Source: BD2-11 clade cluster bacterium bin43 (lineage in GTDB: Bacteria; Gemmatimonadota; Gemmatimonadetes; Longimicrobiales; Gaopeijiaceae). From it: DNA of 64,000 nucleotides. Every line of letters starts with the position of its first letter. Within the stretch, counting starts at the first letter, position 1. The DNA lies in the NCBI GenBank assembly GCA_002238605.1, contig MPMR01000002.1:186001-250000 (forward strand). Reading direction: 5' to 3'. Both the position numbers and the translations under genes were made by a program. Of the stretch, positions 11,691-25,037 are shown piece after piece. The notes beneath the pieces were generated by a model, which was not told where the DNA came from, ran no database searches, and was given only the letters and a program-made list of their open reading frames with translations.

Positions 11691-12707
11691 TCAGCCGGTC
11701 GGCCGATACTCCGCAGCCGCCTGATGGAGCGCCCGGAACACGACCCCGCGGTCCCCGAGCCGGTGGTGCAGTTGGCGTTCCAGGCCGGCGATGGGATAGA
11801 GGTTCTGGGGAGCGCGGTCGTCCTTGTGGGGCTCGGAGGCGAACCGCGGCAGCACGACTGCGGTCGCGTCCGCGATCTTCCGCACCTGCTCCAGCTCCGT
11901 CTCCGGCCAGGCCTCGCAGCGAACGATTCCGGCCCAGGGGTGCCCCTGCGCTTCCGTCAGACGCAGGTACCACGAGTACCGCGTCCACTTCGTCTGGATG
12001 AGGAAGACGGGGGTTCGCTCGCGTGGCGCGAGCTGCCCCACCACCGCACGGGGGGCCGCGCCCAGATACTGCACGCGGTGGCTCTTCACGTAGCCGATGG
12101 CTCCCGGGATGCGCTGGCGGCCCCGCAACGGACCATCCATCAACATCAGGGCGCCGGAATGCAGCGGAGGGTTGGTGCCGTTGGAATCCGAGCCAAGGCC
12201 GACGCGCGCCGAACGACGGCGCGATCGCCGGGCGCCCCATCCCCCCGCAACCTCGACCTCCAGCTGACCCATTCGCTCCTGGAGGCCATTGACGAGCTGC
12301 TCGATGTCGTCTTCCGCCACCGGGCATGCGGCGAAGGTCCCCACCCGGGTCACCAGGTCAGGGACTCCGGCTTGCCCGAAGAAGCCACGGCGCACCTCGG
12401 CCGCCACGATCTCCGCCCTGCTTCCGCAGCGGACCATCCCGGCCGCGTACGAGGCGCAGATGCCCAGTCGGGGCTCGTCCTCGCCGCTCATCCAGACGCG
12501 CGCCTCGATGCGGCGCACGCCGTCGACGAAATAGACCCGCCCGGGGATCTCCCGCCGCTCGCCGGCAGGAAGCGGGCGCCATTCGCTCTCGGGAAGCTCC
12601 ACACCGGGGTCGACCTGCTCCCCCGGAATCTCCTCCCGCTTCGCCTCGACCGGGGAACCGAACTCCGGGGACCAGCCTTCGACGGCCAGGGACTCGAAGC
12701 GTTTCAC
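11691..12707 (-). CDS. nurA: NurA-family 5'-3' nuclease
   Basis: 338 aa from a GTG at 12707 that overlaps the rad50 stop (GTGA). The NurA fold is indicated by two Asp-Gly motifs with correct spacing: YFVDGVRRIEARVW near residues 58-72 and LMLMDGPLRGR near 185-200. These carry the metal-binding aspartates of the RNase H-like active site. A PVFLIQTKWTRYSWYLRL segment and a C-terminal YPIAGLERQLHHRL helix also match the family. NurA forms a complex with the HerA translocase and resects DNA ends together with Mre11-Rad50. It is the last gene of the herA-mre11-rad50-nurA operon. The Arg-rich stretch near 158-167 is unusual. Confidence 0.82.
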   Translation of the reverse strand: MKRFESLAVEGWSPEFGSPVEAKREEIPGEQVDPGVELPESEWRPLPAGERREIPGRVYFVDGVRRIEARVWMSGEDEPRLGICASYAAGMVRCGSRAEIVAAEVRRGFFGQAGVPDLVTRVGTFAACPVAEDDIEQLVNGLQERMGQLEVEVAGGWGARRSRRRSARVGLGSDSNGTNPPLHSGALMLMDGPLRGRQRIPGAIGYVKSHRVQYLGAAPRAVVGQLAPRERTPVFLIQTKWTRYSWYLRLTEAQGHPWAGIVRCEAWPETELEQVRKIADATAVVLPRFASEPHKDDRAPQNLYPIAGLERQLHHRLGDRGVVFRALHQAAAEYRPTG

Positions 12708-15484
12708 GTCTCCACCCGCGCCACCGAGGAGGAGTTTCCCACCTTCTTCACCCGGTACTGGACGGGGATGCGGTCGGCGAGCTCGGAGACATGGGTGACG
12801 ATCCCCACCATGCGCTCGGTACCGAGTTGCTCGATGGTGGCCGCCACTACATCCAGCGTCTCCGAATCCAGCGTGCCGAAGCCCTCGTCAAGAAAAAGCG
12901 CTTCGAGCTTGGCGCTCCCGCGCGCCGCCAGTTCGGCCACCTGCTCCGCCAGCGAAAGAGCAAGCGCCAGGGAGGCAAGAAAGGTTTCACCGCCGGAGAG
13001 CGTCTTTGCCAGGCGCGGCTCGTCGGCGTTCCTGTGATCGATCACCAGGAATTCGTTTTTTCCGGAGAGATCCAGCGAGTACTGGCCGCTGGAGAGTTCC
13101 CGCAGCCGCGCCGTCGCCCCCTGGACCAGCCAGGCCAGGATCTGATTCTGCAGCCAGGCGCCGAAGTTCTTGGCGTTGAGATGGTTGCCCAGATCCCGGG
13201 CGATCAACGCGCGCTGGTGCGCGTGTTTCCGTTGCTCCTCGACGCGCTCTCTCTCCCGGGCGGCTTCGCGAAGATCATCGAGACCCTTGCGGGCGGCTCC
13301 CAGCTCCTCCGCGCACCTCTTCGCGGGATCCTCTTCGGATCCCAGGGAAAGGCCGTCGTGACCGCACCGCTCCCGGAGTCGGGCATCGAGGCGGTCCTTT
13401 TCCGAGGACGCAGCCTCGCGCGCGGCGCCCGCCCGGGCCATCGCCTCCTGCGTTGCGCCGTACTGCCGCCCGGCCCATTCCGACAGCCTCGCCCAGGAGC
13501 CGGCCAGGTCACCTTCGACTGAAGCCGGCGGCTTCATCTCGGCGACGAGATCGCGAACCTCGCCGTACTCCGACCACGCAGCGTCCAGACGCGTCTGCCC
13601 CTTCTCGAGCTCCCTTCTCGCGTGCTCGTGGGTGCGCCGCGCCGACTTCTCTTCCACCCCCGCCCGCCGCAACGACCCGTCCGCCGAGCTGATCGCATCC
13701 AGGAGGGCCGCCGCCTCGTCCGGGGTGGGAGCCTCTCGCAGGTCGGCTCTCAGGTTGGTCGCGAATGCCTTCTGCTGCTTGAGGGTCGCGCTGGCGCTCC
13801 TCAGCCGTCCGTCCGCCTCTGCTCGCTTTCCGGCCGCTTCCTCAACCCGTCGCGCCAAGCGCTCGACGCGGGCTTCGCAGGCAGCGATCTCGACCATCAG
13901 CGCGGATATTTCTTCGTCCGTGGGGGCCTCGGACAAGGACACCCGCAGGGACTCGGCGGACTGCTCCCGGAGCGTCAGGGTGGTCGCGCAGGCGGTCCGC
14001 GCCGACCTGCAGCGATCCCTGTCGGCTCCGGCCTGGACGGCTGCACGTTCCGTCACCCGCTTCCGCTCTCGAGCCGCGTCCAGGTCCTCGGGAGGGTCGT
14101 GGTCGGGGAGGTGGGCTACGTTCTGGCGACAGACCGGGCACGGCCTGCCCTCTTCCAGGTGGTGAGCCATGTCGGCCGCGCTGTGCGCCACGCGGAGGGC
14201 CTCAAACGCCCGTGCCGCAGCCTCCATCGTCCGATCAGCTTCGGTTTTTCGGCCGCGCGCCGCCGTGTACGCCTGCTCGGCCTGCGCCAGGTCGCGGCCT
14301 GCGCGCTCGGCGTCGTCCTCCGTTCCGGCGAGCTGCTTCCGCTTCTCCCGGACGCCTTCGAGTTCCGATTTCCCGGGGAGCCGCCCCAGCACCTCCCGAG
14401 CCTTGGAGAGATCCTCCCGGGCCGACTTGTCATCCGCGACAGCTACGGCGGCGGTCTCGGCCGCCGCATTCAGCTCTCTCCGGGTGCGATCGATGTCCGC
14501 GTCCAGGCGCGCCAGGTCCGCCCTCTGCTTCACGACCTTTTCGACGGCTGCCCTTTCCGGTAGCGCGTCGCGCATCGCCTGGGCAGCGCGCAGACTCGAG
14601 GCTGCGGCTTCGCGGGCCTCCGAAGCCCGACGGAGTTCCTGCTCGGCCTGCCTGTGCCGGGTCGCCAGTTCGGAGGTGCTCTCCGGAACTCGAACCTCCC
14701 CCAGCAGCTCCAGCTGCTCGGCGCCCTTCGACCACCGCTCGCCCGCGGCCTCGATCGCCGTGGCGGCCTCGATCAGCCTGCCCGAGACCCCGTCGATATG
14801 CTCTCTGAGTCTCTCGAGCGTCGCGACCCGGTTTTCCGCTTCGCGAACGGCTTCCGGGGTCGCGTGAGTCAGCGCGGACTCAAGGCGCCACTGCAGATTG
14901 GCGACCCGGTTTTCCTCCTCCTTCCACCGCAGGTTTGCCGCCTTGCGCAGCCTCTCGTACAGACCGAGCCCGAGCAATCGCTCGAGCAGCTGCTTTCGCT
15001 CGCCGGGTTTCGCCCGCAGGAAGGCCGCGAACTCGCCCTGCGGGAGCACGACGCACTTGGTGAAGTGGTCGAGGCCCAGCCCGATGACGTCGTTCTGGAC
15101 GCAGGCCGATAGTTCCGACTCCGTGGCCGCCAGGGTCTTCACCGAGGCGCCGTTCTCGCTCTCCTCCAGGCGGGCTTCCTTCGTGGTGGCGCCGGTTGCG
15201 GTGCGCTGCACGACCCGGACCGCCGAATAGGTCCTCCCCCGCGCCTCGAAGTCGAGCCGCACCCTCGCGCGGACCTTGCCCTGGCTGATGACCGGCGCGA
15301 TCAGGTTCCGGTTGTCGTAGCGCGGCACCGAGCCGTAGAGGGCGAAGATCATCGCGTCGATGAGGCTCGACTTGCCGGATCCCGTCGCTCCCCTGAAGAC
15401 GAAGAGGTCGGTGTCCTCGAAGCTCACCTCCGTCCGCTCGCGAAAGGAGGTGAAGCCCTCCAGTTCAAGCCGCAGCGGACGCAT
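12704..15484 (-). CDS. sbcC: Rad50/SbcC-type SMC-like ATPase with zinc hook
   Basis: 926 aa from the ATG at 15484, chosen because MRPLRLELEGFTSF is the canonical family N-terminus; the frame continues 15 codons upstream without support. The Walker A motif is GATGSGKS (32-39). A central CPVC zinc hook at residues 449-452 is flanked by two long coiled-coil arms rich in Glu, Arg and Ala. The C-terminal lobe has LSGGETFLASLALALS and the Walker B LFLDEGFGTLD. It joins Mre11 (385 aa, gene just upstream, 20-nt overlap) to tether and process DNA ends. Its neighbours are HerA and NurA, so it acts here in an end-resection set rather than a stand-alone sbcCD pair. Confidence 0.93.
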   Translation of the reverse strand: MRPLRLELEGFTSFRERTEVSFEDTDLFVFRGATGSGKSSLIDAMIFALYGSVPRYDNRNLIAPVISQGKVRARVRLDFEARGRTYSAVRVVQRTATGATTKEARLEESENGASVKTLAATESELSACVQNDVIGLGLDHFTKCVVLPQGEFAAFLRAKPGERKQLLERLLGLGLYERLRKAANLRWKEEENRVANLQWRLESALTHATPEAVREAENRVATLERLREHIDGVSGRLIEAATAIEAAGERWSKGAEQLELLGEVRVPESTSELATRHRQAEQELRRASEAREAAASSLRAAQAMRDALPERAAVEKVVKQRADLARLDADIDRTRRELNAAAETAAVAVADDKSAREDLSKAREVLGRLPGKSELEGVREKRKQLAGTEDDAERAGRDLAQAEQAYTAARGRKTEADRTMEAAARAFEALRVAHSAADMAHHLEEGRPCPVCRQNVAHLPDHDPPEDLDAARERKRVTERAAVQAGADRDRCRSARTACATTLTLREQSAESLRVSLSEAPTDEEISALMVEIAACEARVERLARRVEEAAGKRAEADGRLRSASATLKQQKAFATNLRADLREAPTPDEAAALLDAISSADGSLRRAGVEEKSARRTHEHARRELEKGQTRLDAAWSEYGEVRDLVAEMKPPASVEGDLAGSWARLSEWAGRQYGATQEAMARAGAAREAASSEKDRLDARLRERCGHDGLSLGSEEDPAKRCAEELGAARKGLDDLREAARERERVEEQRKHAHQRALIARDLGNHLNAKNFGAWLQNQILAWLVQGATARLRELSSGQYSLDLSGKNEFLVIDHRNADEPRLAKTLSGGETFLASLALALSLAEQVAELAARGSAKLEALFLDEGFGTLDSETLDVVAATIEQLGTERMVGIVTHVSELADRIPVQYRVKKVGNSSSVARVET

Positions 15485-16622
15485 ACTCCTCCTCGAGCAA
15501 CTCGTCGAAAAGTCCCGCCAGCTCTTCACCCGCGATGTCGCGCTCCTTCAGATAGCGCCGAAACTGCGTGCGCGGATCGCGCAGCTTGCCGGGATCGACG
15601 GGCTCGGGCCCGTTTACGTCTCCATTCGGACGCGCGACGATTACGTCCACGGCATGCGGGAACATCCCCCGGACCCGTTCGGCGAGGCCGGGTGAGGGCG
15701 CCTCCTCGACGATGACGCGGAGGAAGTCGTCGCCGGTCGTTCCCTCCATGGCGTCCAGGTCGAGACTGCTGCCGCGCAGGGTGCGCAGGGCCCGCCCCGA
15801 CGTCAGCGGGACCTTTTGCACGCGCGCCGGCCGATTCGCCGCCGCCTCTACGACCAGGACGCAGTTCTCCCCATGGGTCTCGCCGAAGTCGAGGGCGAAA
15901 GGCGAGCCGGCGTACCAGATGGGGCACTTTCCGGGGATCATCTGGGGTTTGTGGATGTGCCCGAGGGCGACGTAATGGGCGCTCGTGGGAAAGAGGTCCG
16001 CGGGGACGTAGTAGTCGAAGATGTGAGCCTCTCGTTCGCCGCCTCCCATCGCCGCGCCAACCACGGTCAGGTGAGCCACGACCAGGTTGACGGTCTCGGG
16101 AGAGAATTGCCCGCACAGCGCGGCCGCGATCGTGCGGCAACGGCCGCTGTACTCCTTCTGGTGATCGTCGGGGTCGCCCCCCATGAGCGCCTCCGCGGTC
16201 ACGATCCCGCGCTTCGACTGGAAGGGGAAGAGCGCGATGCACGCCGTCTCGCCGGACCTGGTGTCGAGGCGCACCACGCCGCCTTCGTCCGGTCGAGTCA
16301 CCCTGACCGCCGAGGTGACGTCGGCGAGCTCGAGCAGCGGGCCGACCGCAGCCAGCCGGCGCGGATTGTCGTGATTCCCGGCGATGACGACGACGTGGGC
16401 GCCGGTGCGGGCCAGCCGCAGCAGCGCGTCGTAGACGATTTCCTCCGACTCGGGACTGGGGACGGCGCGGTCGAACTGGTCGCCGGCGACCAGCACGATA
16501 TCGACGGCCTCCCGCTCGGCGATGGCGATGATCTCGTCGAGGACGGCCCGGTGTTCGTCGGCCCGGCTGCGCCCGCGGAGCGTCTTGCCGACATGCCAGT
16601 CCGCGGTGTGGAGGACTTTCAT
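15465..16622 (-). CDS. sbcD: Mre11/SbcD-type DNA exonuclease
   Basis: 385 aa starting MKVLHTADWHVGK. The ATG at 16622 lies one base past the herA stop, and the 22 codons of open frame above it lie inside herA. The phosphoesterase motifs appear in order: HTADWHVG, VAGDQFDRA, VIAGNHD, VVAHLTVVG and YVALGHIHKP. They supply the Asp, His and Asn ligands of the two Mn ions. Mre11 nicks or degrades DNA ends and hairpins with Rad50 ATP hydrolysis. The C-terminal tail (about 280-385) is the Rad50-binding part. The near-abutting start suggests translational coupling to herA. Confidence 0.93.
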   Translation of the reverse strand: MKVLHTADWHVGKTLRGRSRADEHRAVLDEIIAIAEREAVDIVLVAGDQFDRAVPSPESEEIVYDALLRLARTGAHVVVIAGNHDNPRRLAAVGPLLELADVTSAVRVTRPDEGGVVRLDTRSGETACIALFPFQSKRGIVTAEALMGGDPDDHQKEYSGRCRTIAAALCGQFSPETVNLVVAHLTVVGAAMGGGEREAHIFDYYVPADLFPTSAHYVALGHIHKPQMIPGKCPIWYAGSPFALDFGETHGENCVLVVEAAANRPARVQKVPLTSGRALRTLRGSSLDLDAMEGTTGDDFLRVIVEEAPSPGLAERVRGMFPHAVDVIVARPNGDVNGPEPVDPGKLRDPRTQFRRYLKERDIAGEELAGLFDELLEEEYASAAA

Positions 16623-16623
16623 G

Positions 16624-18330
16624 TCACCAGGACCCGAGGCCCTCGAAGGGATCGCCGCCGCCGCTCCCGGTCTCCCCTTCCCCCCCACCGGCGTCTCCCG
16701 CCTCGTCCGGCCGGGTGGCCCACGCGGGAAAGGGGAACTCGAGCACCAGCGGAACCGGCAGCTCGGGCTGCGACAGGATCATGGTGCCGGGCTTGAGGAT
16801 GGTGGCGCGCTGCCGGTGGGCGGTCGGCAGGAAGGCGTACTCGGGCCGCCCCGCCTCGGCGCTGTCCAGACGCCCGGCCACCCTGAGCGAGGAGTTGGCG
16901 ATGACGCGGCGCTCCACCTCGCTGGCGGTCTGCTGTGCGCCGATCAGGATCACACCCAGCGAGCGGCCGCGCTCGGCCATGTCCAGCAGGATCTCCTTGA
17001 TGGGGCTGCGGCCGTCCCGGGGCGCGTACTTGTTCAGTTCGTCCAGCACCACGAAGAGCAGCGGCTCGCGCGCGCCCGTCTCCTCCTTGTCCTGGAAGGT
17101 CTTGCGCAGCACCACTCCCACGACGAAGCGCTGTGCCCGGCGCGACAGCTTGGCGATGTCGACCACCGTGAGCTGCTCCTGCATGCCGATGCGGTGCTTG
17201 TCCGGGTTGGGCACGTCGCCCCGCACCAGGTGCTCGGCGTCCCGGCGGGCCGCGTACAGGCGCCGCACGAAGGCGTTGATGGTGCCGCCGCCGATGGAGC
17301 GCCCCGCCCAGTCTGGCTGATCCGCCGGATCCTCCACGCGCTCGCGGATGGCCTCGATCAGGTCGCCGAAGGTGCGGCAGGTGGTCCCCGCGACGCGCAC
17401 GCCTCCGTCATCGAGCGGCCGCGCGTCGCGCCGCAGCCGCGCGGTCACGTTGTGCACCACGATGGTGTATTGCTGGCGCTCGTCCTCGGCGTCCGCGAAC
17501 AGGAACGGGAGAAGCTCGTCCTGACAGAAATCCGACAGCGTCCAGAAGAACGAGGTGACTCCCTCGGAACGGCTCCCGGTGCGGGGTGCGGCGGAGGGGT
17601 CGCCCGGGCGCGGCGGCGCCCACAGTTCGACGCTGCCGAAGGGCTGGGCCGGAAGATCGAGCGCCGCATAGCGGGCTGCCTGCTCTCCGTCCAGGTGGCG
17701 GTTGCGCTTGTCCAGGAAGAGCAGGTCGTCGCCCTTCACGTTGAAGATCAGCGCCTTTGTGTTGTGGGCGCCGTCGCCCAGCTGGCCCGAGGTGAACAGG
17801 CTGTGCAGCAGAAAGACGGCGTAGCTGGTCTTGGTCGCCACCCCCGACACGCCGCTGATGTTGACGTGCGCGCCGCGGGTGCCGTCCAGGAACTCTACGT
17901 TGGCGTGCACCACCTCGCCGTCGCGCGACAGGCCGACGGGCATCCTGCGCTCCATGCCGTCGAAGAAGAGAGCCTCCTCGCGCTCCTTGCCGACTGCCTT
18001 GCGCACCAACTGGCCGGGCACGGGAGGGACGAACACCTCGGGCTCGAAGCGGGTCGCCAGCACCTTGGCCGCTTCGGTCACCTGTGCCGGGAGCACCCCT
18101 TCCTCGATCAGGAAAACGTCGCTGTCGAAGCGCGCGCCTTCGTGTCGGACGCGCAGGTCGGCCACCATGCCGTAGATGCGGATCGGATCCGCCGCGCCCG
18201 GAAGGAGGCGCTCGACAACGACCACGTCGTCGAGCTGCAGGAAGGCCCCGTCGGCCACCGCCACCCAGAACTCGAGCGGCGTCGCCGGATCCGTGCCGAT
18301 GACCCGGCCGACCGGGATCGATTCGCTCAC
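16624..18330 (-). CDS. herA: HerA-type DNA translocase ATPase
   Basis: 568 aa from a GTG start. The N-terminal 100 residues fit a HAS-barrel (SIPVGRVIG start). The ATPase domain has an odd P-loop, GVSGVATKTS at residues 160-169, with Thr where the last Gly of G-x4-GK[ST] should be and one residue more than the canonical spacing. The Walker B LFVVLDELNKYAPR has Asp430-Glu431, and the C-terminal FLPTAHRQRA and ILSQPELPVPL segments match HerA. The hexameric enzyme pumps DNA into the NurA nuclease. It is the first gene of the four-gene operon; no clear promoter was found in the 122-bp gap upstream. Confidence 0.82.
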   Translation of the reverse strand: MSESIPVGRVIGTDPATPLEFWVAVADGAFLQLDDVVVVERLLPGAADPIRIYGMVADLRVRHEGARFDSDVFLIEEGVLPAQVTEAAKVLATRFEPEVFVPPVPGQLVRKAVGKEREEALFFDGMERRMPVGLSRDGEVVHANVEFLDGTRGAHVNISGVSGVATKTSYAVFLLHSLFTSGQLGDGAHNTKALIFNVKGDDLLFLDKRNRHLDGEQAARYAALDLPAQPFGSVELWAPPRPGDPSAAPRTGSRSEGVTSFFWTLSDFCQDELLPFLFADAEDERQQYTIVVHNVTARLRRDARPLDDGGVRVAGTTCRTFGDLIEAIRERVEDPADQPDWAGRSIGGGTINAFVRRLYAARRDAEHLVRGDVPNPDKHRIGMQEQLTVVDIAKLSRRAQRFVVGVVLRKTFQDKEETGAREPLLFVVLDELNKYAPRDGRSPIKEILLDMAERGRSLGVILIGAQQTASEVERRVIANSSLRVAGRLDSAEAGRPEYAFLPTAHRQRATILKPGTMILSQPELPVPLVLEFPFPAWATRPDEAGDAGGGEGETGSGGGDPFEGLGSW

Positions 18331-18430: not shown

Positions 18431-18465
18431 CCATCAGGCCGTCCGGTTCCCATCAGGCCGTCTGG
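18431..18465. repeat. Short direct repeat at the 3' end of the DAHP synthase gene
   Basis: CCATCAGGCCGTCCGG at 18431 recurs as CCATCAGGCCGTCTGG at 18450, 19 bp apart. The second copy spans the stop codon of the DAHP synthase gene, so the first is probably a small tandem duplication of the gene end. No function is evident. Confidence 0.4.
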
Positions 18466-19502
18466 CGGGCCTCCGCGAGAGGAGACACCAGGGGCCGGCC
18501 GATGTGTTCGGCGATCCCGCGCACCTGGGCCATCATTTCGACGAACTCCTCCGGGTAGAGCGACTGGGCTCCGTCCGAGAGCGCCTGCGACGGGTCGGGG
18601 TGCACCTCCACGATGAGGCCGTCCGCTCCGGCGGCGACCGCGGCGCGGGCCATGGGCGTCACCTTGTCGCGAATGCCGGTGCCGTGGCTGGGGTCGGCGA
18701 TGATGGGCAGGTGCGAGAGCGACTGCACCACGGGGATCGCGGTCAGGTCGAACAGGTTTCGGGTTTCGGTGTCGAAGCTGCGCACCCCCCGCTCGCACAG
18801 GATGACGTTGGCGTTGCCCTCCGAGAGGATGTATTCGGCCGCGAGCAGCAGCTCCTTGATGGTAGCCGCGAGTCCGCGCTTCAGCAGGACGGGCCGCGGG
18901 GAGCGCCCCGCGCGGCGCAGCAGAGGGTAGTTCTGCATGTTGCGCGCGCCGATCTGCACGATGTCGGCGTACTCCTCGACCGCATCGAGGCTGTTGAGGT
19001 CGAGCGCCTCGGTCACGATGGCGAGGCCGGTCTCCGCACGGGCGCGCGCCAGCAGCTTGAGGCCCTCGACCTCCAGCCCCTGGAACGAATACGGCGAGGT
19101 GCGCGGCTTGTAGGCGCCGCCGCGCAGGATGGTGGCGCCCGCCTCCGCCACCCGCTCGGCGGCCTCCATGATCTGCGCCTCCGACTCGACCGAGCAGGGG
19201 CCGGCCATCACGGCGACCTCGCGCCCGCCGATGATGGTACCGTTGGCGAGCGGCACCACGGTGTCTTCCTCGCGCCACTCGCGCGACACCTGCTTGTATG
19301 GGCGGCTGACCGGGATGATCTCCAGTACGCCGGGGAGTCCCACCAGGCGGGCCTTGTCGACTCGCCCGTCATTCCCCACGAGGCCGATCGCCGTACGCTG
19401 GCGGCCGGGCATGAGATGCGCCTGGTACCCCATCGCGTGGATGGTGCCCACGGCTCCCTGGACCTCCTGGGCCGTGGCGTTGTGCTTCATGACGATGAGC
19501 AT
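18453..19502 (-). CDS. aroF: 3-deoxy-7-phosphoheptulonate synthase (DAHP synthase, type I-beta)
   Basis: 349 aa. It condenses phosphoenolpyruvate and erythrose 4-phosphate, the first step of the shikimate pathway. Residues 1-70 form the ferredoxin-like regulatory domain found in the Thermotoga/Bacillus-type enzymes. The TIM barrel then shows AGPCSVES (metal-ligand Cys), LRGGAYKPRTSPYSFQG, IGARNMQN, LLKRG and the ADPSHGTG region with a metal-ligand His. The length is normal and the start codon is ATG. It lies 105 bp downstream of smc and 122 bp upstream of herA on the same strand, with no aro genes nearby. Confidence 0.93.
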   Translation of the reverse strand: MLIVMKHNATAQEVQGAVGTIHAMGYQAHLMPGRQRTAIGLVGNDGRVDKARLVGLPGVLEIIPVSRPYKQVSREWREEDTVVPLANGTIIGGREVAVMAGPCSVESEAQIMEAAERVAEAGATILRGGAYKPRTSPYSFQGLEVEGLKLLARARAETGLAIVTEALDLNSLDAVEEYADIVQIGARNMQNYPLLRRAGRSPRPVLLKRGLAATIKELLLAAEYILSEGNANVILCERGVRSFDTETRNLFDLTAIPVVQSLSHLPIIADPSHGTGIRDKVTPMARAAVAAGADGLIVEVHPDPSQALSDGAQSLYPEEFVEMMAQVRGIAEHIGRPLVSPLAEARQTA

Positions 19503-19607: not shown

Positions 19608-22600
19608 TTACGCAGACGCACCCGCCTCGAGGCGAACCCCTACCACCGAGCTCACGCCCGGTTCCTCCATGGTCAGGCCGTAGATCCAGTCGGCCGCCTC
19701 GATGGTGCGCGGATTGTGCGTGATCACCACGAACTGGCTCTGCTGCTTGAACTCTCGCAGAAGCTGAACGAAGCGGTCAATGTTGCTCTCGTCAAGCGGG
19801 GCGTCCACTTCGTCCAGGACGCAGAACGGGCTCGGCTTCACAAGGTAGATGCCGAAGAGGAGCGCGAGCGCGGTGAGCGCCCTTTCTCCCCCCGACAGCA
19901 GATCGATGCGCCGGGTCTTCTTGCCCATCGGGGCGGCGTGGATGTCGACGGGCCCTCCCAGCGGATCCTCGGGGTCGCCCAGACGCAGGTCGCACTCTCC
20001 GCCGTCGAACAGGCGCTGGTAGATGTTGCGGAAGTTCTCGCGCGCGGTCTCGAAGGTCTCGAGGAAGAGCCTGGTGGCGGTCTGGTCGATCTCGCGGATG
20101 GCGGCCCGCAGGTCGTTGCGCGCCCGCCCGAGGTCGTCGCGCTGCCCGGTCAGGAAGGTCAGGCGCTCATTCTGTTCCGCATGTTCCTCGATGGCGAGCA
20201 TGTTGACGGGACCCAGGCGTTCGATCGCCTGCACGAGCCCGCCCAGCTCCTCCTTGAGCTCCTCGGGGTCGCCCTCGACCGGCTCCGCCATCTCGACCAG
20301 CTTCTCGAAGGATCGCGCCCATTCCGCCTCCACGCGTTCGCGGATGAGGACGATCTTCCCGCCGAGTTCCTGCTCCTCGAGGTTCAGGTCGTGATGCCGG
20401 TCGGAGGCGGCCCGCTCGGCCGAGCGCGCGGCTTCGACCCTCCGGTCGGCCTGCTTTACCGCCTCCTTCGCCTGCCCGAGCGCCGCGTCGTCCTGTGCGA
20501 GCCGCTCCTGAGCGCGGTCACGCCGCTGGAACAGCCGCTCGACGGCCTTCCCCCCGCGCGTGAGCAGCGCGCGGGCTTCGGACAGCTCGCGCCCGAGCTG
20601 CTCTTTCTCCTTCTCCAGCCGCGCGAGCTGCGCGGAGGCCTGCGTCTCCGACCTGCCTAGATCGCCCAGACGCTCGTCGGCGCGCGCGAGTTCGCCCTGG
20701 TGCTGATTCGACTGGATCGCGAACCGGGCTTCGTCCACGCGCGCGCGCTCCCAGTCCCCCTCCGCCACCTCGAGCACCTCGGCGGCCCGTTCTCCACGAC
20801 TGCGCAGGGAGGCGGCTCCCGCGGTCAGGCTGTCGAGTTCCTCCTGCTGCGCGCGCTCCTGCCCGGTCGCGGTGGCGATGGCCTCCCGTATGTCGCGGAC
20901 GCGCCGCGCGAGGTCGTCGCTGTCCCGTGTCAGACGGGTGCGGCGCTCCTCGTGGGTGCTCCGGTCCGCCCGGGCGGCGCGCAGGTCGTCGTCGGCGCGG
21001 GTCAGCGCCGCGCGCCGCTCCTGGAGCACCCTCTCCGCCCGCTCGACGCGCGCCTGCGCCGCCTCGCGCGCCCCACGGGCGCGCGAGGCTTTCCGGGCAG
21101 CGGCGACGGCGGCCTCCTCGAGGGCCGCGAGCTTGCCGCGGCGTTCGAGGAGGCCGGCCGTCCCCGCGGGGTTGCCCACCACCACCACGCCGCGCGCGTC
21201 CACGGACGCGGGCGGGCGGTCACGGCCGGGCGCCTCGTCCCCGCCGGTGGAGTCCCCGGGCTCGTCGCGGTCCACCCCGGCCAGAAGTATGCGTGCCCAG
21301 GAGGCGCCCGGCCCTTCCGGGCGGAGTTCGCTCAGCAGCGACCCCGCTGGACCCGCCTCGGTGGCCTCGTCCAGCGGGAGCAGCACGATCCCTCCGCCCT
21401 CGGTCCACTCCTCGGCGAACCACCTGCGCAGGCGTGCGGCGGCCTCGCCGCCCTCCACCAGCAGCGCCTGAGCCAGATGGCCCAGATACGACTCCGCGGC
21501 GCTCAGCGCGCCCGCCGGGCCTGCAATGCACTGCGACAGCGTGCCGAGAACCAGATCCGGATGCGCCTCGCGGGCCGCCCGCACGACCGGCTCGTAGCCG
21601 GCTCCATCCCGCTCCATGATCTCGAGGGCGGTCCGCCGGGCCTCGAGCGCTGACGCCCGGTCAGCCGCCTTCACTTCGGCTGCGCGCGCCCGCGCCTGCG
21701 CGCTGCGTGCGTCCTCGAAGTCCCGCAGCCCCTCGTCCACCTTCGTCCGGGCCCGCGTCGCGGAGGCCTCGAGGCGGACCATCCGGTCGTCGGATTCCCC
21801 GCCCTCCCGGCGCATCCCGGTCAGCTCGAGCTCGGTCTGGGAGGCACGTTCCTCGAGCCGGACCAGCCGACCATGCAACTCCTCAAGCCGCGTGCGCGAG
21901 GCGCCGACGGTGCCCTCCATGCCGGCCACCCGGCGCAGCAGTTTCCGTTCCTTGCCGCGCACCTCCGCCAAGGTCGCGCGCGCGCGCCTCAGCCGTTCCC
22001 TCGTGCGCGCCGTAACCTGCTGCGCCTGTTGCGATTCCGCGCCCACTTCGGCCAGTTCGGCCGCGGTTCGGGCGCGCGACCTCCGCAACTCGGCCAGCTC
22101 GCGCGCCAACTCGCCGGAACGCCGACGACCCACGTCCTGATCCTCGCCGATCTGCCCCAGTCGCCGCTCCGCGTAAACGATGCGCTCGCGCGCAACCGCC
22201 AGGTCCCGTTCCCAGCGCACCAGGTCCTTCTGGATGCTGTCGAGCACCCCCGCCGCCTCGGTGCGGGACTTCTCGGCCTCCAGGCTTCGCACCCGCGAGG
22301 CCTCGCGCTCGGTCTCGGCCGTCCGGAGCTCGATGAGCGTCGCCTGCTGCGCCTCCTGCTCGCGCGCGAGCAGCTCCCGAACCTTCGTCAGGCGATCCTC
22401 GAACTCGACGAGGTCCACCGACACCACCGCGACCTCGACCGAGAGCCGTCGCTTCCTCAGACCGTGGTAGCGCTGTGCCTTCCCCTTCTGGCGCGCCAGC
22501 GAGCGGACCTTGGTCGCCACCTCCGCGATCACGTCCTCCAGCCGCTCCAGGTCCAGTTCGGCCCGGGCCAGCCGCTGTCCCGCGATCCGGCTCCGGTCCT

Positions 22601-23111
22601 TGTACTTGCCGATGCCCGCGGCCTCCTCGAACAACCCACGGCGCTCTCCCGTCCGCTCCGAGAGAATCGCGTCGATCATGCGGCTCTCGATGATCGCGTA
22701 GGCGTTGGCGCCGAGTCCGGTGTCCCGGCACAACTCCTGGACATCGCGCAGGCGACAGGTGGTGCGGTTGATCGAGTACTCGCTGCCGCCATCGCGGTAC
22801 ACCGTGCGGCCGATCTCGACTTCGCCGAAAGGCACCGGGAGCAGCCCGTCCTCGTTGGTGACCCGGAGGATGACCGATCCGCGGTTGATGGGCCGCCGAT
22901 GGACGGTTCCCTGGAAGATCACCTCTTCCATGCGTGAGCCGCGTACCACCGTGGGCCGCTGCTCGCCAAGCACCCAGCGAACGGCGTCGCTGATATTGGA
23001 CTTGCCGCATCCGTTCGGGCCCACGATCGCGGTAATGCCCTCGTGGAACACAATGTCGGTGCGTTCGGGGAACGACTTGAACCCGTGCAGGCTCAGCGAG
23101 GCGAGCTTCAT
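19608..23111 (-). CDS. smc: Chromosome segregation ATPase SMC
   Basis: 1167 aa, standard SMC length. The N-terminal lobe MKLASLSLHGFKSF leads to the Walker A GPNGCGKS at residues 31-38. Long coiled coils flank a hinge around residues 500-640, which contains an unusually long Asp/Gly/Pro-rich insert near 610-635. The C-terminal lobe has LSGGERALTALALLFG and the Walker B FCVLDEVDAPLDESN. It organises and separates sister chromosomes with ScpA/ScpB, which are not in this window. The ATG overlaps the stop of the ParA-like membrane protein gene (ATGA), so the two are translationally coupled. Confidence 0.96.
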   Translation of the reverse strand: MKLASLSLHGFKSFPERTDIVFHEGITAIVGPNGCGKSNISDAVRWVLGEQRPTVVRGSRMEEVIFQGTVHRRPINRGSVILRVTNEDGLLPVPFGEVEIGRTVYRDGGSEYSINRTTCRLRDVQELCRDTGLGANAYAIIESRMIDAILSERTGERRGLFEEAAGIGKYKDRSRIAGQRLARAELDLERLEDVIAEVATKVRSLARQKGKAQRYHGLRKRRLSVEVAVVSVDLVEFEDRLTKVRELLAREQEAQQATLIELRTAETEREASRVRSLEAEKSRTEAAGVLDSIQKDLVRWERDLAVARERIVYAERRLGQIGEDQDVGRRRSGELARELAELRRSRARTAAELAEVGAESQQAQQVTARTRERLRRARATLAEVRGKERKLLRRVAGMEGTVGASRTRLEELHGRLVRLEERASQTELELTGMRREGGESDDRMVRLEASATRARTKVDEGLRDFEDARSAQARARAAEVKAADRASALEARRTALEIMERDGAGYEPVVRAAREAHPDLVLGTLSQCIAGPAGALSAAESYLGHLAQALLVEGGEAAARLRRWFAEEWTEGGGIVLLPLDEATEAGPAGSLLSELRPEGPGASWARILLAGVDRDEPGDSTGGDEAPGRDRPPASVDARGVVVVGNPAGTAGLLERRGKLAALEEAAVAAARKASRARGAREAAQARVERAERVLQERRAALTRADDDLRAARADRSTHEERRTRLTRDSDDLARRVRDIREAIATATGQERAQQEELDSLTAGAASLRSRGERAAEVLEVAEGDWERARVDEARFAIQSNQHQGELARADERLGDLGRSETQASAQLARLEKEKEQLGRELSEARALLTRGGKAVERLFQRRDRAQERLAQDDAALGQAKEAVKQADRRVEAARSAERAASDRHHDLNLEEQELGGKIVLIRERVEAEWARSFEKLVEMAEPVEGDPEELKEELGGLVQAIERLGPVNMLAIEEHAEQNERLTFLTGQRDDLGRARNDLRAAIREIDQTATRLFLETFETARENFRNIYQRLFDGGECDLRLGDPEDPLGGPVDIHAAPMGKKTRRIDLLSGGERALTALALLFGIYLVKPSPFCVLDEVDAPLDESNIDRFVQLLREFKQQSQFVVITHNPRTIEAADWIYGLTMEEPGVSSVVGVRLEAGASA

Positions 23112-24106
23112 CGGGCGAAGTACCCGCTCACCCGCGCGAGGAGGTTGTCGTACAGTTCCCAGAGCCGGTCGGCTCCGGGCACGTCGGCGATCCCGGCATT
23201 GTCGATCCCCATCAGGATCATCAACGCCGCGAACAGGATCAGCACCACGAACGCCGAGGCGCTGAGGCCCCGACCCCGGCCGTGGGAGACGGACTCGGGT
23301 CCCGGGCCGTCTCGGGGCTGCGCGGGGGCGGTGGCCGCGGCTGCCGGAGCCGGCTCCGCTTCGGCCACGGAGGGTTCGTCCGCCTCCCCGCCGTCATCGA
23401 ATCCCTGCCACAGCGTGGCTCGGTAGGTCTGCCCGCCGAGGCGGTTCTCTCCCTTCCCGGTCACCGTCGTGACGGAGGTACCGTTGGGGGCCGGACCCAG
23501 CAGCGCGATGGCGTCCCTCAGTCCCACGCTTCCCAGCGCGCCCATGGGTTCGCCCTTGCAGCCAAGCACGATCGAAGGGGTGCCGCGCGGATGGAAGGGC
23601 GATTCGGCAGCCTGATAGGTGACGACCATGATGCCGCCCTCGACCAGCGCAGCAAGAAGTCGATGCCACGCGGGACGGTGGAGCAGGCGGCGCGGATTCG
23701 CCACGGGAGTCCCCGCCGTGGCCACCCAGAAACTCCCGTCGTTGACGGGGCGGGCGATTCGCCCCAGGGAAGCGCCGTACTCGATGGCATCGCTGATGCC
23801 CTCGAGATTCTCGCTGTTGAACGCCCGGTGCAGGTGGGGCTCGTCGAAGCACAGGTCGACGAGCAGCACGCGTGCTCCCCGGGAGGCCCAGCTCCCCGCG
23901 ATCGCCACCGCGGCGTGGACGGCCCAATCCTTGTGGCGTGCCCTGGAGCTGGCCCGGACCTCGACCAGCCGCCCATGCTCCGAGCCGATGGGAAGGTCGC
24001 GGTCCAGGATGCCGGAGGGGACGTCCGGGGAAAAATCAAAGGGCTGCAACTGCAGCGCGGAAGCGCCGGGCTCGGATCCCGCGGATGCATCACCCGGGGG
24101 GGTCAT
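23108..24106 (-). CDS. Degenerate ParA/CpsD-fold protein with C-terminal membrane anchor
   Basis: 332 aa, not assignable to a named family. Residues 40-125 look like the start of a ParA/BY-kinase NTPase: a strand, a loop at the P-loop position (ASSRARHKDWAV), a helix, then GARVLLVDLCFDEPHLHRAF, which resembles the second nucleotide-binding motif. The deviant-Walker KGGxGKT/S sequence is missing, so nucleotide binding is doubtful. An Ala/Pro-rich linker (about 245-275) leads to one transmembrane helix at about 283-302 and a short tail. Both ends overlap neighbours by 4 nt (rsfS upstream, smc downstream), placing it inside a tightly coupled set. A membrane-linked partner for SMC or for chromosome partition is an attractive but untested idea. 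Confidence 0.6.
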   Translation of the reverse strand: MTPPGDASAGSEPGASALQLQPFDFSPDVPSGILDRDLPIGSEHGRLVEVRASSRARHKDWAVHAAVAIAGSWASRGARVLLVDLCFDEPHLHRAFNSENLEGISDAIEYGASLGRIARPVNDGSFWVATAGTPVANPRRLLHRPAWHRLLAALVEGGIMVVTYQAAESPFHPRGTPSIVLGCKGEPMGALGSVGLRDAIALLGPAPNGTSVTTVTGKGENRLGGQTYRATLWQGFDDGGEADEPSVAEAEPAPAAAATAPAQPRDGPGPESVSHGRGRGLSASAFVVLILFAALMILMGIDNAGIADVPGADRLWELYDNLLARVSGYFAR

Positions 24107-24495
24107 GGCGGCCCGCCCTCCGTGTCCGGCGCAAGCTCGTGGCGGGGCGCGTCCCCCCAGAGCGCCTCGAGCTGGTAGAAGGACCGCACCTCTGGATGAA
24201 ACACGTGTACGACGAAGTCGATGTAGTCGATGAGAACCCAGCGGCCTTCCCGCCCTCCCTCCGTGTGCGCGGGGTGGGTTCCCTCCTTGCGCAGCTGCCG
24301 GGTCACGTGGTCCGAGATCGAACGCACCTGGGTGTCGGAAGTGCCGGTCGCCAGGAGGAAGTAGTCGGTGGCCGAGGAGATGCCGCGCAGGTCGAGCACG
24401 ACCACGTCGCTGGCTTTGCGTTCGAGCGTCAACCGGGCCGCCCGCCGGATCGCGGGCGGGAGACCGGAATCGCCGAAAAGGGCAGCTTCGACCAT
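24103..24495 (-). CDS. rsfS: Ribosomal silencing factor RsfS
   Basis: 130 aa. Segments KASDVVVLDLRG, ATDYFLLATGTSDTQVRSI and GRWVLIDYIDFVVHVFHPEVRSFYQLEALW are diagnostic of RsfS (Iojap/DUF143). The protein binds ribosomal protein uL14 and blocks subunit joining when nutrients are scarce. It lies 20 bp downstream of rplI and overlaps the next gene by 4 nt. The C-terminal 15 residues are a non-conserved Pro/Gly tail. Confidence 0.93.
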   Translation of the reverse strand: MVEAALFGDSGLPPAIRRAARLTLERKASDVVVLDLRGISSATDYFLLATGTSDTQVRSISDHVTRQLRKEGTHPAHTEGGREGRWVLIDYIDFVVHVFHPEVRSFYQLEALWGDAPRHELAPDTEGGPP

Positions 24496-24515: not shown

Positions 24516-24971
24516 TCAGCTCGTCCTTTCCACGTGCACCGTCACCTTGACCTCCACCTCCGCGTGGAGCTTGATCGGAACGTCGAAGACGCCCAGCGTC
24601 TTGATCGGTTCTGCAAGGTTGACGTGTCGCTTGTCCAGAACGAAGTCCAGCCCTGAGCTGACCGCCCGTTCGGCGATGTCGGCAGCGGTCACGGAGCCGA
24701 ACAGCTTGTCGGATTCGCCCGCGCGTGCCCGGAACACGAGGTGCATGCCCTCGAGCCTGGAGGCGCGCCGGCGGGCTTCCAGGTACGCCCTGCGGGCCCG
24801 CTCCTCCGACCGCCGCTGCTCCCGCTCCAGCCGACGGACGTTGGCCGCGGATGCTTCGTAGGCGAGGCCGCGCGGCAGGAGAAAGTTGCGGGCGTAGCCC
24901 GGTTTCACGTTCACGACATCGCCCGGTTCACCGAGGCGATCCACGGTTGCCTTGAGGATCAGTTTCACCAT
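24516..24971 (-). CDS. rplI: 50S ribosomal protein bL9
   Basis: 151 aa from the ATG at 24971 (MVKLILKATVDRLGEPGD); the frame is open 16 codons further but only this start matches the family. The N-terminal domain has VNVKPGYARNFLLPRGLAYEA, followed by the long connecting helix with many Arg/Glu and the C-terminal domain ending in VKVTVHVERTS. It binds 23S rRNA domain V near the L1 stalk and helps maintain reading frame. It lies downstream of the rpsFR fusion and the DUF2232 gene, the usual cluster. Confidence 0.95.
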   Translation of the reverse strand: MVKLILKATVDRLGEPGDVVNVKPGYARNFLLPRGLAYEASAANVRRLEREQRRSEERARRAYLEARRRASRLEGMHLVFRARAGESDKLFGSVTAADIAERAVSSGLDFVLDKRHVNLAEPIKTLGVFDVPIKLHAEVEVKVTVHVERTS

Positions 24972-25037
24972 CCACTCCTGGTTTCTCGAAACATGCGGGC
25001 CTGCGCCGTCAGGCGCCACGCAGGCCGGGGTTTTCGG

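Follow-up and report, generated by a model that had tools for sequence, protein, structure and literature searches.

A predicted BY pseudokinase encoded beside smc in Gemmatimonadota, with SPOR domains in most homologs: a possible tie between chromosome and envelope

FtsN, DamX, and DedD consist of a cytoplasmic N-terminus, one transmembrane (TM) helix, and a periplasmic C-terminal SPOR domain. SPOR domains are described as recognizing peptide-stripped peptidoglycan, which is enriched in the septal ring (PMC6895207). In pneumococcus, the BY-kinase CpsD is reported to interact with ParB, and its phosphorylation is reported to affect nucleoids (PMC4574921), which provides a precedent for a BY-kinase with a chromosome-side partner. 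EcpK provides a second precedent, as a BY pseudokinase that is proposed to be a scaffold (PMC12004946). According to a 2024 paper, Gemmatimonadota genomes seem to be without Min, MipZ, PomZ, MapZ, and SsgAB, and ParA-like proteins outside parAB are named there as putative candidates for division-site placement (PMC11271474).

The window, which is the whole 64,000-nucleotide stretch of DNA analyzed here, carries a frame between rsfS and smc that is referred to below as gene X (Table 1). The frame encodes 332 aa, and the ORF coordinates agreed with the initial annotation on its position and on its ATGA overlaps with both neighbors, one between the X stop and the smc start (23111) and the other between the rsfS stop and the X ATG. 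A chance or artifactual ORF was ruled out by the homologs, the pairing with smc, and dN/dS, which was 0.53, 0.65, and 0.61 for the whole protein in comparison with three members of the genus. X matches with an E value of ≤1e-3 were found in 52 of the 59 genomes searched (its own genome counted), although the weakest of these may be true BY-kinases. The Pfam search of X gave zero matches at an E value of ≤1, and the NCBIfam matches were all sub-cutoff. The best four of these were tyrosine autokinases, with EpsG first (E value, 8.5e-9; 35 bits versus a cutoff of 313.8; residues 64 to 157). X had no Pfam match that would indicate homology to ScpA or ScpB, which are encoded together on another contig (C43) of the window genome, and a strong AAA_31 (ParA-type) match in this genome also lies away from X. 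The DAHP-synthase-like gene downstream of smc is found at this place in many of the class members examined. The presumed SbcC-/SbcD-like pair and HerA-like frame are about 1 to 7 kb from the 3′ end of smc.

Table 1. Features of the X locus and of related loci. Positions refer to the window unless preceded by a locus number.
Feature	Position	Strand	Basis or remark
Gene X, 332 aa: predicted BY-pseudokinase domain followed by an acidic linker, a single TM helix, and a short tail	23108..24106	(-)	
Predicted cytoplasmic BY-kinase-fold domain, about residues 46-206 of X	23489..23971	(-)	AlphaFold2 model; CapA2B2 Z 20.0
Site expected for BY-kinase P-loop (GEGKST); reads RASSRARHKD, residues 51-60	23927..23956	(-)	Alignment with Shouchella BY-kinase
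Walker A′-like strand VLLVDLCFDEP, residues 80-90, retained	23837..23869	(-)	Alignments A1, A3
Variable linker, Glu/Ala/Pro-rich, about residues 214-282	23261..23467	(-)	Model pLDDT under 50 for most
TM helix, about residues 283-301, GRGRG before	23204..23260	(-)	Hydropathy; helix in model
31-residue post-TM tail, partly predicted helix	23111..23203	(-)	AlphaFold2 model, sequence
smc, chromosome segregation ATPase	19608..23111	(-)	NCBIfam TIGR02168, E 3.8e-252
rsfS, ribosome silencing factor	24103..24495	(-)	PF02410, E 1.7e-32
Presumably rplI	24516..25019	(-)	Synteny: adjoins rsfS upstream in many relatives
Presumably DAHP-synthase-like	18453-19502	(-)	Downstream of smc
Presumably SbcC- and SbcD-like pair	12704-15529 + 15465-16688	(-)	
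Presumably HerA-like ATPase	16624-18330		Near SbcC-/SbcD-like pair
C-terminal SPOR genes directly upstream of X	L070:6311-7714, L076:7511-9271, L079:2647-4149, L074:3309-4736		Over Pfam cutoff
SPOR gene directly upstream of smc, X not found	L088:5676-7520		Over Pfam cutoff
Frame of ~1000 aa with YFGQNxVQY motif	L072:12318-15308, L070:2831-6202, L088:2791-6060		

The initial annotation had linked X to smc, and this pairing proved to be kept across the class. In a phylum sample of 160 genomes, 156 had an smc match, and 150 smc loci were available among the matches listed. The gene directly upstream of smc was X in 103 of these loci (called at a profile E value of ≤1e-3, with 10 calls weaker than 1e-8), rsfS in 15, and another gene in 32, and the 103 X loci rule out a chance neighbor. 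In 92 of the 103, the junction lies between −12 and +4 nt relative to the smc start, and the pairing was found in eight of the nine class families sampled (f1 to f5 and f7 to f9), mostly through weak profile matches in f7 and f8. With a stricter profile cutoff (E value, ≤1e-10), 103 genomes had an X match, which was located ≤3 kb upstream of smc in 91 of them. The remaining 12 matches, which may include true BY-kinases, consisted of one that overlaps smc (G176), six in genomes without an smc place among the matches listed, four on a different contig or strand from smc, and one that is 2.8 Mb from smc (G195). In G195 (L074/L149), which is a single contig, the X-like gene follows rsfS, so that the pairing with the distant smc is broken.

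Gene order was also followed in smaller sets. rsfS, X, and smc were all present in order in 22 of 30 loci from the 59-genome search, and the other eight lacked one or two neighbors within the available DNA. X was directly upstream of smc in 15 of 20 regions examined; three of the others were without X (G034, G031, and G098), one was without smc (G195), and one ended at a contig end (G092). The adjacency of X and smc was kept where rsfS and X are about 1 to 9 kb apart. Of 13 loci in named genomes, 11 were assigned to Gemmatimonadota, Gemmatimonadetes, Longimicrobium, or Gemmatimonas, and two were Shouchella BY-kinases; smc followed X in 10 of these 11, and the contig of the eleventh ends in X. 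Gemmatimonadota is thus the most likely phylum of the window. In other class families, the frame with the YFGQNxVQY motif sits between rsfS and the SPOR gene or X. At the 15 loci where rsfS adjoins smc, the rsfS stop is up to 181 nt from smc, and the genomes concerned had zero X matches genome-wide at an E value of ≤1e-10. Thus, X is dispensable in some lineages, and because smc was retained where X was lost, X is not a core SMC subunit there.

The fold of X was predicted with AlphaFold2 for the window protein from residue 2 onward (mean pLDDT, 69.0; 84 to 96 per ten-residue block over model residues 51 to 190) and for a full-length relative, L096 (mean pLDDT, 81.5; pTM, 0.49). The structure comparisons covered the N-domain. 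The window model was closest to the BY-kinase CapA2B2 (Z, 20.0; rmsd, 2.8 over 188 residues), followed by MinD (14.3) and Soj (13.2), and the L096 model scored 20.6 with Wzc versus 14.6 with Soj. Foldseek with the predicted window model returned 4jmp (E value, 9.9e-9) and favored BY-kinases as the Z scores did. By these models, the cytoplasmic domain of X has a BY-kinase fold. The initial annotation had likened a strand of X to ParA and BY-kinases and had named two results that would speak against its reading, an unrelated fold and a lack of linkage to smc in related genomes; neither came about. Since BY-kinases surpass ParA and MinD in both fold and profile matches, the suggested descent from a partition ATPase is unsupported, and a ParA origin was rejected as the best description.

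The VLLVDLCFDEP strand and the missing Walker A, both pointed out previously, were recovered in the alignments. Asp84 of this strand is invariant (19 of 19 rows of A1 and 12 of 12 rows of A3), and a loose Walker A′ regular expression fits 100 of the 103 X homologs. Window X has no Walker A, the deviant form included. Among 103 homologs, GK[ST] in the expected region was seen in 0 and GxGK in one. The Shouchella BY-kinases L100 and L101, which were set aside from the X set as true BY-kinases, do have the GK[ST] P-loop. The Walker B Asp of VIIDTPP (L100) is matched by no Asp in any of 19 rows, and the Tyr-rich C-terminal cluster is absent from window X, in which the only tyrosines are at positions 110, 164, 228, 319, and 329. 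Because the P-loop and Walker B Asp are gone and the Walker A′ Asp is kept within a BY-kinase fold, X is a bacterial tyrosine pseudokinase (BY pseudokinase) rather than a decayed ParA, and the loss of these motifs suggests that it is catalytically dead. The N-domain tree had low resolution, with stars on 31 of its 101 inner branches, and its outgroup is one long branch joined by another long branch.

Hydropathy and the model both placed the one membrane helix of the initial annotation after the linker. Lys and Arg were more abundant before the helix than after it in 77 of 91 X proteins, which is consistent with an inner membrane protein whose N-terminus is inside the cell. Twelve of the 103 homologs were under the hydropathy threshold for a TM helix after the N-domain, and in two of these the frame ends early.

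In most X homologs the TM helix is followed by SPOR domains, which had been missed from the window because its genus has, judging by the sequences, lost this part of X. When the first ten homologs were compared with Pfam SPOR (PF05036), six were over the cutoff (best E value, 7.9e-19), two were below it, and two were without a match. In the L096 model, the N-domain is followed by a long helix where the TM is expected and then by two successive beta-alpha-beta-beta-alpha-beta units. The proteins encoded immediately before smc, whether X or a different SPOR protein, were scanned with Pfam over their last 330 aa, and SPOR was detected at an E value of ≤1e-3 in 104 of 128. This total is the 150 loci minus 15 with rsfS upstream, 6 in which an upstream ORF of 300 aa was not clear, and 1 with masked letters (L149). 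An analysis-built SPOR profile matched 82 of the 103 X proteins and none of the other 21, window X included, as well as 26 of 26 upstream ORFs that had no X-profile match (one of them, L149, with masked letters); these counts are not independent, because the profile consists of 10 segments of the same proteins, but the Pfam count is. A regular expression for the key SPOR Gln, a poor one that failed to match in 42 of the 82, found Gln in 13 and another residue in 27. With Gln in only 13 of 82, many homologs may bind glycan weakly or in an altered way. Families f4, f5, and f9 have a further SPOR gene before X, with a lipoprotein-like start where visible, and a SPOR protein directly before smc can persist in genomes without an X match. 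For the SPOR genes listed in Table 1, visual inspection suggested a lipoprotein-like start wherever that part was visible, and the gene in L074 also gave weak WD40-type matches.

Window X had no PF05036 match, and the window genome had zero matches to this domain at an E value of ≤0.01. Seventeen of the 21 SPOR-less X proteins belong to the window's family. In 15 of these, a clear TM helix is followed by a tail of 2 to 51 residues, and the other two frames end early. The remaining four are from f5 and have tails of over 200 residues, with a sub-cutoff Pfam match in G081, and their sequences may hold diverged SPOR domains. G158, with SPOR, and G029, with no SPOR match, are sisters in both the N-domain tree and the smc tree, so SPOR was lost more than once or its loss was reversed.

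Amidase_3 is the type of enzyme whose products SPOR domains bind. Of the 39 genomes in the window's family, 19 had either no Amidase_3 (PF01520) match (9 genomes) or a weak one (10 genomes; E values, 8.5e-10 to 9.4e-6, which count as over Pfam's cutoff), and the match in the window genome was weak only. No SPOR match was found in 17 of these 19 genomes versus 2 of the 20 others. Two genomes outside the family (G038 and G171) entered the amidase comparison as SPOR-less because they were absent among the matches listed, and two in which the X frame ends early (G176 and G191) were treated as unknown in the label counts. It is possible that the amidase/denuded-glycan/SPOR pathway is reduced in the window's lineage. 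This lead is suggestive only, because the weak matches are over the cutoff, SPOR-less X was found both with and without a strong Amidase_3 match among genomes with X, and just three independent contrasts were available on starred branches, with which a sign test cannot reach 0.05.

Taken together, a dead kinase fold, a TM helix, septal-type wall-binding domains, and coupling to smc are most simply read as a transmembrane scaffold that would connect the envelope with SMC or the chromosome, ancestrally at the septum. We consider this reading close to an even chance, if somewhat short of it, and we infer the partner of X, its contact with SMC, its septal localization, and its function as follows. 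X would be a catalytically dead BY-kinase-fold scaffold with a single membrane anchor that is made together with SMC. In the ancestral protein, a partner on the chromosome side (SMC-ScpAB or ParB) would be bound by the cytoplasmic pseudokinase domain, and amidase-processed septal peptidoglycan by the SPOR domains in the periplasm, which would tie chromosome organization to the division site. SPOR-less X of the window's genus would serve simply as a membrane anchor or regulator. Points against a scaffold role are the 15 of 150 loci at which rsfS adjoins smc, the separation in G195, the 21 of 103 X proteins without a SPOR match, the low count of the key SPOR Gln, and the 12 of 103 X proteins under the TM threshold. 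The broader proposal, that Gemmatimonadota have a dedicated coupler, a former BY-kinase with SPOR domains, which ties SMC condensin to amidase-processed septal peptidoglycan and whose wall-binding half was lost in the window's lineage, is possible but less likely than not.

The strongest alternative is that X is a division or envelope protein of the FtsN/DamX kind that is merely cotranscribed with smc, so that proteins of division and of the chromosome are produced together, and does not contact SMC. Operon adjacency can reflect coexpression alone, SPOR is the common element upstream of smc (26 of 26 non-X upstream ORFs with the analysis-built profile), f4/f5 and f9 have a further SPOR protein before X, and smc stays where X is lost. 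However, where SPOR is lost in the window's family, the kinase-fold cytoplasmic domain and the junction with smc are still present, which points to a cytoplasmic role. Cotranscription without contact is a real possibility but not the expected one. That SPOR-less X in the window is a functionless, decaying remnant would agree with the absence of the SPOR part in scattered branches of the family, the absence of the whole gene in other genera of the family, and a dN/dS of 0.53 to 0.65, which is only moderately low. A remnant seems unlikely, because X is full-length in nine other members of the genus, in which frame, N-domain, TM helix, and tail are kept at 64.6 to 74.2% identity. Even less probable is an EcpK/HfsB-like scaffold of a polysaccharide copolymerase: the fold and the loss of catalytic motifs are as described for EcpK (PMC12004946), but no polysaccharide gene was recognized by eye beside X in the window, the identified neighbors in relatives are rplI, rsfS, smc, and the DAHP-synthase-like gene, and X has its own TM helix and, in most homologs, SPOR domains. 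That X is a positioning ATPase of the ParA/MinD type that has degenerated is very improbable. Soj and MinD, from the same superfamily, are the next structural matches (Z, 13 to 15), but in each model the best BY-kinase leads by about 6 Z units, and the profile matches are mainly to BY-kinases.

The ParA-superfamily fold, the membrane anchor, the septal-type wall-binding domains of most members, and the class-wide pairing with smc make the X family a testable candidate for division-site placement in Gemmatimonadota. Contact of X with SMC, if it occurs, would reveal one route by which a condensin is anchored to the envelope, and it would add chromosome biology to polysaccharide export as a field in which BY pseudokinases act; if the coupler proposal is true, X would be a physical link from chromosome to septum. 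Both BY pseudokinases and SPOR proteins have been described before, and what appears from the sequences to be new is their union in one protein that is paired with smc across a class. Among the papers listed in a literature search of sources other than subscription papers and preprints, none describes an smc-coupled BY pseudokinase with SPOR domains.

Compared with known systems, X shares the cytoplasmic-domain fold and the Walker A′-like strand with BY-kinases (Wzc, CapAB, and CpsD/EpsG). Unlike them, it is without Walker A, the Walker B Asp, and the Tyr cluster (the last judged in window X), and it has an extra linker, a C-terminal TM helix, SPOR domains in most homologs, and a place beside smc. 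The relatives of X have the part order of FtsN, DamX, and DedD but differ from these in the BY-pseudokinase N-domain and the linkage to smc; L096 has two SPOR-like units, and the window copy is SPOR-less. ParA, MinD, and MipZ belong to the same fold superfamily, from which X is set apart by the missing P-loop and a fold nearer to BY-kinases. EcpK and HfsB are described as having, like X, a BY-kinase fold without catalytic motifs and are both proposed scaffolds; the partner given for EcpK is the PCP EpsV, and EcpK is described as also being without Walker A′ (PMC12004946). X differs from EcpK in being a membrane protein with a retained Walker A′ Asp, in the SPOR domains that most homologs carry, and in its coupling to smc.
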